In this document: piece after piece, positions 25,954 to 27,940 of the stretch | How positions within the stretch are numbered: the stretch's first letter is position 1 | How the letters are laid out: every line of letters starts with the position of its first letter | Source: Candidatus Zixiibacteriota bacterium | GTDB lineage: Bacteria; Zixibacteria; MSB-5A5; GN15; FEB-12 | Assembly (NCBI GenBank): GCA_040753875.1 | Contig: JBFMDV010000001.1 | Coordinates: 1-64,000, forward strand | Direction: 5' to 3' | DNA length: 64,000 nucleotides | Notes under the pieces: generated by a model | Told to the model about the DNA's origin: nothing | The model's database searches: none | What the model saw: only the letters and a program-made list of their open reading frames with translations | Program-made: the position numbers and the translations under genes

Positions 25954-25982
25954 TTGACAGCGACTCTGTCAGTCGTTAGACT
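25954..25982 (+). promoter_or_regulatory. sigma-70 type promoter for the cohesin-like secreted protein
   Basis: TTGACA (25954-25959), a 17-base spacer and TAGACT (25977-25982). The spacer and flanks hold short dyads (GACAG/CTGTC and GACT/AGTC) that could be an operator. Transcription would start near 25989, leaving a leader of about 164 bases before the TTG start at 26153; it includes a small GCAAT/ATTGC hairpin. Confidence 0.6.
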
Positions 25983-26152
25983 ACCTTTGGACACGGGGTA
26001 ATCTGATTTTCCTCACGATTGCGCACATTAGAGTAACCGCTAAGCAGTAGCAATTCGTATTGCGGATAGAAAGCGGCTGCGTCGTGCAATGGACTGTACG
26101 GGCCGGCGACAGCCACAACGTTAACCACATGCTAACCCTGAGGGGGTGAGCC

Positions 26153-26983
26153 TTGTTGAGACGTATTATGACGTTCGCAGTCATCTCAGCCATCCTGGCT
26201 CTGCCGGCAATGCTGTTTGCCGCGAGCGACCAGGCATTGGTGGCCGGTAAGCCGCTTGTCAACGCGGACAGGACGATCACCGTCCCGTTATCGATCACTA
26301 ATCAGGACAACCTGATGGCAATCGACATCCCGCTGAAGTTTTCGGACGGGGTGACCCTCAAGGAGGTTAACTTCGAGAACACCCGGGTCTCCTATTTTGA
26401 CCTGAAGGTGGCCAAAATCGACAACGCCAATAAGAACGTTGTCATTGGTCTGGTCTCGCAGTTGACTCCGACTCGGAAGCCGGAGCTCTCAGCCGGCACC
26501 GGGCCTGTCGCTAATCTGGTCTTCGAGGTGAAGGATCCTTCAGTGAGCGAGCTCTCGCTCGAGACCGTCAAGCTGGTGAATCCACATCATTCGCTCCTGT
26601 TTATCTATCACACCTGGGATCAGAACGGAAGAATCGGCCAGCAGCGTGTCGAGCCGACCTTCGACAAGGTCGCGTACGCGCTGACGGCGGGTTCTGGTCT
26701 GCCGCAGAATTTCGATCTGAAGCAGAACTATCCGAATCCATTCAACCCGTCCACCGAGATCTCATTCGATCTGCCGGTGGCCTCGAAGGTTGAACTAACG
26801 GTGTACAACGTCCTTGGCCAGCAGGTCAGGACATTAGTGAATGAGGAGATGACGGCCGGTTCTCACGTAGCCACGTGGGACGGCAGAGCCACTGATGGCA
26901 ACCAGGTTGCCAGCGGCGTCTACTTCTATCGCATTTCGGCCGAGAGGTTTGAGATGACGAAGAAGATGCTGCTTTTGAAGTAA
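26153..26983 (+). CDS. secreted cohesin-like protein with FlgD-like/type IX sorting C-terminal domain
   Basis: 276 residues. The TTG start is chosen because GGGGGTGAG lies just upstream. A signal peptide ends around residue 24 (LPAMLFAA). Residues 25-190 resemble a cohesin/carbohydrate-binding beta sandwich (LVNADRTITVPLSITNQDNL, ANLVFEVKDPSVSELSL). The C-terminal ~85 residues begin with NYPNPFNPSTEISFDLP and run to GVYFYRISAERFEMTKKMLL, the FlgD-Ig-like domain used as a type IX secretion signal or cell-surface module in FCB bacteria. It is monocistronic, with its own promoter and terminator. Its partner is unknown. Confidence 0.85.
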   Translation: MLRRIMTFAVISAILALPAMLFAASDQALVAGKPLVNADRTITVPLSITNQDNLMAIDIPLKFSDGVTLKEVNFENTRVSYFDLKVAKIDNANKNVVIGLVSQLTPTRKPELSAGTGPVANLVFEVKDPSVSELSLETVKLVNPHHSLLFIYHTWDQNGRIGQQRVEPTFDKVAYALTAGSGLPQNFDLKQNYPNPFNPSTEISFDLPVASKVELTVYNVLGQQVRTLVNEEMTAGSHVATWDGRATDGNQVASGVYFYRISAERFEMTKKMLLLK

Positions 26984-27031: not shown

Positions 27032-27063
27032 AGCCCTCGCTGCTGGTCACAGCGAGGGCTTTT
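27032..27063 (+). terminator. intrinsic terminator after the cohesin-like gene
   Basis: AGCCCTCGCTG pairs perfectly with CAGCGAGGGCT (11 bp) around a 7-base loop, followed by TTTCTCT. It closes the transcript of the 26153 gene. Confidence 0.85.
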
Positions 27064-27153
27064 CTCTGCGCAGATTCTAACGACCACACAAGCCGATTAT
27101 CGCACAGTCTGCGACTAATCGCCTTCCCGACACGGGGGACGCCACAGCATCTT

Positions 27154-27166
27154 ATTGATAATCAAT
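27154..27166. promoter_or_regulatory. Fur-box-like inverted repeat
   Basis: ATTGATAATCAAT is an inverted repeat (ATTGA, TAA, TCAAT) and keeps the TGATAATCA core of the classical Fur box. It sits about 57 bases upstream of the predicted transcription start near 27217. AT-rich palindromes arise by chance, so regulation by iron is only a hypothesis. Confidence 0.35.
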
Positions 27167-27201
27167 TGGTTATGCCTTATTGAATGCCCCGGCACGCTTC
27201 T

Positions 27202-27210
27202 TGATATACT
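27202..27210 (+). promoter_or_regulatory. extended -10 promoter for the leader RNA
   Basis: TGATATACT is an extended -10 (TGn plus TATACT). A weak -35, TTGAAT, lies 19 bases upstream (27180-27185). Transcription should start near 27217, just before the structured RNA. Confidence 0.55.
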
Positions 27211-27216
27211 GTGCTT

Positions 27217-27372
27217 CAAACCGAGGTAGTGGGATCAGTAGTCCCATACGGGGCTGGGAGATTCCCCAGCGGACCTCGTGCGGATGGTCTTTCTTGGCGG
27301 TTATACCGTTCGCATCGAGAATCGGTTTTTGAGGAGAGCTGGGTCCTGACGTGAGTCGGGACCTTTTTTTTT
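27217..27372 (+). ncRNA. candidate structured leader RNA (three-way junction plus terminator), riboswitch-like
   Basis: From the likely start the RNA can fold as P1 (CGAGGT 27222-27227 with ACCTCG 27273-27278), P2 (TGGGA 27230-27234 with TCCCA 27242-27246, 7-base loop) and P3 (GCTGGG 27253-27258 with CCCAGC 27265-27270), a compact three-way junction. It ends at a strong terminator (27342-27372). GGACC at 27271-27275 overlaps the P1 3' strand and can instead pair with GGTCC (27342-27346) of the terminator's 5' arm, a possible antiterminator. I do not recognise a known riboswitch class. It may be a cis-regulator of the 27455 gene or a free small RNA of about 155 bases. Confidence 0.5.
27342..27372 (+). 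terminator. strong intrinsic terminator inside the leader
   Basis: GGTCCTGAC pairs with GTCGGGACC (9 bp, one G-U) around the loop GTGA, followed by nine T. It precedes the CDS at 27455 by 82 bases, so it would attenuate that gene unless bypassed. Confidence 0.9.
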
Positions 27373-27454
27373 CTGGGGGATGCGGGCGAGTTTACGCTTG
27401 CTCAGCCAATGTGCTCGGCCTACATTTTCGATGAAACCCATAAGGAGGCTGATC

Positions 27455-27940
27455 ATGAAACGAATCGCAACCTGCGCAGTGGTGCTGTGTTTTGTGGCCG
27501 CGCTTGCCGTCGCTCAGGAAGCAGCGGAAAAACCGTGGTTTGATCTGCAAAACTGCGTGTTCTGCAAGGAAGTTGCAGCCCAACCAGGTCTGCTGGAACA
27601 CATGAACACTGAATACCACAATATCTCCAGCGGCTTTCTGTCAATAAGCAAAGTCGATGACGAGTATCTGCCGGCGTATGAGAAGATGAAGGCGGGTATG
27701 AAGAAGGTTATCACGGACATGCAGACCACAGGCAAGATTCCATATATGTGTCAGCATTGCAGCAAGTACGGCGAGTTCGCGATGGCCGGCGTGAAGATGG
27801 AAGAAGTGGAGACGGGGTACGGCATTATTCACATGGCCATGTCATCCGATTCTACGGTGGTGACGAAACTTCAGGAGTTCGCCAAGCGGACCGACACTGA
27901 GTCCAAAAAGTACAAGAAGGAGATGGCGGGGAAGAAGTAA
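27455..27940 (+). CDS. small exported protein with two CxxC motifs, function unknown
   Basis: 161 residues. The ATG at 27455 has AAGGAGG six bases upstream; the frame is open farther upstream but without such a site. A signal peptide ends near AVAQ (residue 20). The mature protein has CVFC near residue 34 and CQHC near 98, plus many Met and His residues and a Lys-rich tail, so it may bind metal or a cofactor in the periplasm. I do not recognise the family. It follows a terminator-bearing leader and is closed by its own terminator, so it looks like a singly regulated gene. Confidence 0.82.
   Translation: MKRIATCAVVLCFVAALAVAQEAAEKPWFDLQNCVFCKEVAAQPGLLEHMNTEYHNISSGFLSISKVDDEYLPAYEKMKAGMKKVITDMQTTGKIPYMCQHCSKYGEFAMAGVKMEEVETGYGIIHMAMSSDSTVVTKLQEFAKRTDTESKKYKKEMAGKK

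Follow-up and report, generated by a model that had tools for sequence, protein, structure and literature searches.

Between the gene for a secreted cohesin-like protein and that for an exported CxxC protein, the window (the whole stretch of DNA analysed, 64,000 nt from a Candidatus Zixiibacteriota bacterium) contains an intergenic region with the following features, given here together with the flanking genes:

26153-26983, plus strand: syntenic upstream gene, encoding a secreted cohesin-like protein with T9SS-type C-terminal sorting
27033-27064, plus strand: terminator-like hairpin GCCCTCGCTGCTGGTCACAGCGAGGGC followed by TTTT, assigned to the upstream gene and read directly from the sequence
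27065-27070, plus strand: TCTGCG, putative upstream activating site 1, a probable enhancer-binding-protein site
27108-27113, plus strand: TCTGCG, putative upstream activating site 2, on the same basis as site 1
27190-27203, plus strand: predicted sigma-54 (-24/-12) promoter CGGCACGCTTCTTG, i.e., CGGCACG-N4-TTG, a motif present in the homologues
about 27215-27217, plus strand: predicted transcription start, placed from the sigma-54 promoter
27218-27224, plus strand: 5' strand of stem P1, AAACCGA, whose partner in the MFE fold is 27322-27328
27226-27270, plus strand: variable part with two local hairpins (27230-27246 and 27253-27270, previously called P2 and P3)
27279-27314, plus strand: core hairpin with stem 27279-27287/27306-27314 and loop UCUUUCUUGGCGGUUAUA at 27288-27305
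27322-27328, plus strand: 3' strand of stem P1, TCGGTTT, partner of AAACCGA at 27218-27224
27329-27341, plus strand: single-stranded GA-rich linker UUGAGGAGAGCUG, containing GGAGAG
27342-27372, plus strand: intrinsic terminator GGTCCTGACGTGAGTCGGGACC with nine T, taken as the 3' end of the RNA from a terminator scan and its conservation
27455-27940, plus strand: gene for the exported CxxC protein, with ATG at 27455 and AAGGAGG (27442-27448) before it

The hairpin at 27033-27064 separates the upstream cohesin gene from the RNA gene, and a hairpin with a T-run resembling it is also found at homologous loci. The first-pass annotation had described the region as a riboswitch-like leader of 27455, and the elements on which it relied are all present: TGATATACT (27202-27210), CGAGGT (27222-27227) and ACCTCG (27273-27278), the two local hairpins, GGACC (27271-27275), the terminator with its nine T and the AAGGAGG motif. 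Its more general description, a structured RNA of regulatory type that ends in a terminator and belongs to no known class, is borne out by the fold z-score, the conservation of the terminator and the Rfam searches reported below.

Homologues were searched by BLASTN with positions 27205-27375 as the query against 54 genomes of the window's family. Matches were obtained in six other genera, five of which were real and shared the hairpin loop, the GA-rich stretch and the terminator. A first covariance model, built from six sequences and covering only hairpin and terminator, matched about 40 genomes of the family, and a model built from 42 sequences found the RNA in 41 of the 54 genomes, usually as one strong copy. 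Over the various searches, the matches at L029, L063, L071, L084, L086, L087, L089 and L093 were judged false. Some members of the window's family have lost the RNA although the site is otherwise intact, the loss being clean in G008, G013, G054 and G055. When 85,000 prokaryote genomes were scanned for an exact pattern, 14 matches emerged, two of them judged to be chance; the 12 real ones belong to Candidatus Zixiibacteriota, including one labelled Calditrichaeota that has the same RNA as a genome of the window's family (G064). No second copy was found in the window's own genome, and nothing was found in a protein search of the genome contigs, a plasmid search and a pattern scan of viral contigs.

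For the three other families of the order (f2-f4), fragments that begin close to where the cohesin orthologue ends were examined: in 16 of 19 genomes they contain the sigma-54 motif 245-474 nt from their start, and diverged RNAs with linker and terminator follow it. Most f4 members have the loop UUUGGCGGUA and a GA-rich linker, f3 has AGGCGGUUAGGG and GGGGAGAGAG, and f2 has a short form that lacks the loop and retains GGAGAGGAG and the terminator. Judged by these sequence comparisons, the RNA family spans the window's family and has diverged copies in the three others. It is a conserved family that matches no catalogued (Rfam) family: searches against Rfam 15 gave no match for the window (E up to 10); among the homologues (E up to 1 or 0.05), the matches at the RNA of L024-L029 all stayed below the threshold, and 18 other homologous loci had none at E<=0.05. 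Nor was a small-RNA study of Zixibacteria found in the literature searched.

The region 27212-27372 of the window folds better than shuffled sequences (z = -4.58). Covariation, the test that the first-pass annotation had proposed, was assessed for hairpin and terminator in 41 distinct sequences, the alignment of which was fitted to the covariance model (the initial MAFFT alignment of six sequences agrees with it). All 18 tested pairs showed double-sided changes, with 96% of cells paired, and the covariation value was 0.723, compared to 0.334 in shuffled alignments and at most 0.18 when the alignment was slid. The core hairpin stem accounts for nine of these pairs (9/9 with double-sided changes, 93% of cells paired) and the terminator for the other nine (again 9/9, with 98.9% of cells paired). 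Stem P1, a long-range pairing absent from the search model, has 36 distinct 5' strands among the 42 homologues with a partner strand that nearly always matches, and strands paired better with their own partners than after swapping (0 of 20000 permutations). Two unpaired segments are conserved: the loop of the core hairpin, UUGGCGGUUA, is near-invariant although its stem varies, and the single-stranded GGAGAG linker, the most widely conserved motif of the RNA, occurs throughout the four families of the order and is kept even in the loop-less form of f2. A CCCGCAACC-like motif is present between P1 and the core hairpin in L033, L034, L036, L038, L039, L040, L041 and L077.

The sequence GGCAYN5TTG is the -24/-12 signature of sigma-54 promoters. 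The 42 homologues all have it ahead of the RNA, compared to an expectation of 0.006 per 160 nt from the density in the flanks (L133 and L139 have a variant of the motif); it was no part of the search model but had been noticed in the first six sequences, and it recurred in all others. In each of the 12 genomes checked, RpoN (PF04552) exceeded the cut-off. Further upstream, TCTGCG occurs at phased positions in 31 of the 42 homologous regions (2.1 expected), the TTCTGCG sites being located about 118, about 140 and sometimes about 158 nt before the inferred start, mostly with a spacing of 22-23 bp (the two copies in the window are 43 bp apart), within the 80-160 nt upstream expected of activator sites of a sigma-54-dependent small RNA. 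In the other families of the order, a CGCA-N5/6-TGCG dyad is often seen at the equivalent site. The phased TTCTGCG copies are probably enhancer-binding-protein sites. The combined enhancer and promoter pattern matched 25 times in the 54 family genomes and twice with a reversed control; about 20 of the 25 matches are, by their coordinates, the RNA locus. Other genes with the same combination (e.g., G000:C23 and G005:C46) were considered and set aside because the extra matches were about as many as chance predicts. The comparison supports a promoter of sigma-54 type for the RNA gene, and from it the use of sigma-54 and the start site are predicted; the extended -10 element that had been assigned to TGATATACT overlaps the -12 element of this promoter instead.

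As in riboswitches and attenuators, a structured 5' part is followed by an intrinsic terminator, which in the window sits between the promoter and 27455 with a good ribosome-binding site behind it. The first-pass annotation had accordingly proposed a transcriptional OFF switch of 27455, in which a ligand-stabilised stem 27222-27227/27273-27278 (its own P1, different from the P1 described above) would free the terminator, whereas GGACC would otherwise pair with GGTCC of the terminator arm. In the full RNA, however, the earlier P1 is not conserved, costs 4.4 kcal/mol and pairs with a probability of about 0.002, and the antiterminator has a pairing probability of 0 at a cost of about 10 kcal/mol and is not conserved either, a sequence complementary to the terminator arm lying upstream in 5 of 42 homologues (2.5 expected). 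A nascent transcript ending at 27280 does, in the folding model, form the earlier P1 transiently, and this stem may therefore be an intermediate of folding. Both local hairpins appear in the fold of the window, as had been stated, but they are not conserved among the homologues.

The promoter of sigma-54 type and the genomic context also speak against such a switch. The conserved synteny is with the upstream gene, and the commonest downstream gene (27 of 41 loci) is convergent with the RNA, so that the RNA cannot be its leader. The first-pass annotation had named homologues of 27455 without such a leader as evidence against its own reading, and this is what was found: in other genomes they sit elsewhere and lack the RNA. 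We therefore regard 27455 as a chance neighbour which, as far as gene distribution tells, is functionally unconnected to the RNA, although in the window some read-through into it is possible because it follows on the same strand. Lacking a conserved aptamer-like junction, an antiterminator and a consistent downstream gene, the RNA differs from riboswitches and attenuators to such an extent that a switch controlling 27455 is scarcely credible, and the locus illustrates how structure, terminator and gene in a row, although resembling a riboswitch, can turn out to be a free-standing RNA beside a chance neighbour. The product of 27455, with a CxxC...CxxC arrangement, has no Pfam or NCBIfam match and belongs to a small uncharacterised family found in 21 of 41 related genomes.

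We conclude that positions 27216-27372 very probably constitute the gene of a free-standing small RNA, about 155 nt long, which is predicted from comparative evidence to be sigma-54-dependent and is presumably trans-acting. By analogy, the RNA would work like the sigma-54-dependent small RNAs GlmY/GlmZ of enterobacteria and Qrr of Vibrio, which are likewise intergenic small RNAs with their own sigma-54 promoter, upstream activator sites and an intrinsic terminator (here predicted), but it is homologous to no Rfam family and shows no similarity to them in sequence or structure (for GlmY, a paper on its sigma-54/sigma-70 promoter is among the references cited in PMC4211561). It differs from them also in being a single-copy RNA enclosed by P1, in its fixed synteny with a secreted cohesin/T9SS-type gene and in a host without detectable Hfq. 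With 6S RNA it shares a free-standing, structured nature and a length of the order of 150-200 nt, but it has no Rfam match, lacks the long hairpin with a central bubble and would be driven by sigma-54. With it, the phylum Zixibacteria gains a well-supported RNA family in which a covarying structure goes together with a promoter, an enhancer and fixed synteny, and which would be a concrete readout of sigma-54 signalling there.

In the mechanism that we propose, an enhancer-binding protein at the phased TTCTGCG sites would switch the RNA on upon a signal, and transcription would start at the sigma-54 promoter and end at the RNA's own intrinsic terminator. As the comparison supports, the long-range stem P1 encloses the variable region and the hairpin that displays the invariant loop, with the GGAGAG linker left single-stranded before the terminator. 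The RNA may then act in trans via these two conserved unpaired segments, loop and linker, which would pair with mRNAs through short seeds or else be bound by an RNA-binding protein, CsrA for example. Sigma-54 is associated with the control of the cell exterior (PMC3162934), which fits the secreted neighbour of the RNA without proving a link.

Hfq (PF17209) was detected in none of the 12 genomes checked, and an Hfq-dependent base-pairing small RNA was rejected on this account, whereas a CsrA gene is present in all 12, which makes the RNA a test case for how a conserved small RNA works with Hfq undetected and CsrA present. Pairing without Hfq, with the loop UUGGCGGUUA as the seed for mRNAs, is a possibility of some weight, if short of probable: the loop is unpaired, about 18 nt long and conserved to a much greater degree than its stem, but exact complements of 11-14 nt, sought as long antisense targets, were at or below chance outside the RNA gene, and the f2 form keeps promoter, linker and terminator without any loop. 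A CsrA-titrating RNA resembling CsrB/RsmZ, the GGAGAG linker and other GGA motifs of which would bind CsrA and free mRNA targets upon sigma-54 activation, would suit the presence of CsrA in these hosts and the single-stranded GGA in the most widely conserved motif; GGA motifs in loops or unstructured regions are described as the binding sites of Csr/Rsm RNAs (PMC4211561). Compared to CsrB and RsmX/Y/Z, however, there is a single conserved GGA position and the total is not enriched (a mean of 3.3 vs 3.8 in dinucleotide shuffles), which weakens the sponge reading and leaves the RNA outside a CsrB/RsmZ-type class as defined by multiple or enriched GGA; the invariant loop, which is not a GGA loop, would also be left unexplained, and we consider CsrA titration unlikely.

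Regulation in cis, with the RNA acting on the mRNA of the cohesin gene, would explain the synteny, which is strict in 32 of 42 loci (the cohesin orthologue lying about 245-504 nt upstream of the RNA) and extends to other families, and a conserved 5' UTR belongs to the cohesin gene itself. Yet adjacency was not shown at about 10 loci (the separation in G019 is about 6 kb), the cohesin gene and its neighbours are kept in genomes without the RNA, and neither loop nor linker showed a preference for pairing with the cognate cohesin 5' UTR (a comparison of the whole RNA with this UTR gave 117 of 5000, a value treated as a matter of composition and not as evidence). A cis-acting partner is accordingly improbable to us. 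Rather more tentatively than the trans-acting RNA itself, and with considerable doubt, we also propose a new functional class of structured RNA under sigma-54 control: its invariant loop, UUGGCGGUUA, may together with the GGAGAG linker offer a binding surface to a dedicated protein (or ligand) instead of serving as an antisense seed, and the RNA may regulate the adjoining cohesin/T9SS-type surface system throughout the order.

The neighbouring genes have peculiarities of their own. The cohesin-like protein, in which the Pfam domains FlgD_ig and Por_Secre_tail score above the cut-off and Cohesin below it, has a T9SS-type tail and usually a TTG start, and it is a near-universal surface protein of the order (78 of 79 genomes). 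The convergent neighbour (e.g., L028 1616-2665, minus strand) is an unusual fusion of a ThiI-like and an NFACT RNA-binding domain (NFACT-R_2). The cohesin gene is preceded by a conserved leader at 25954-26152, with a TTGACA -35 element (25954), TTCGTATTGCGGATAGAAAGCGGCTGCG (26054-26081), a GGCUG/CAGCC hairpin and, ahead of the start, GUUAACC. This leader can be recognised in about 26 genomes, covaries modestly and has no Rfam match; it may be a second element of structured, regulatory type.
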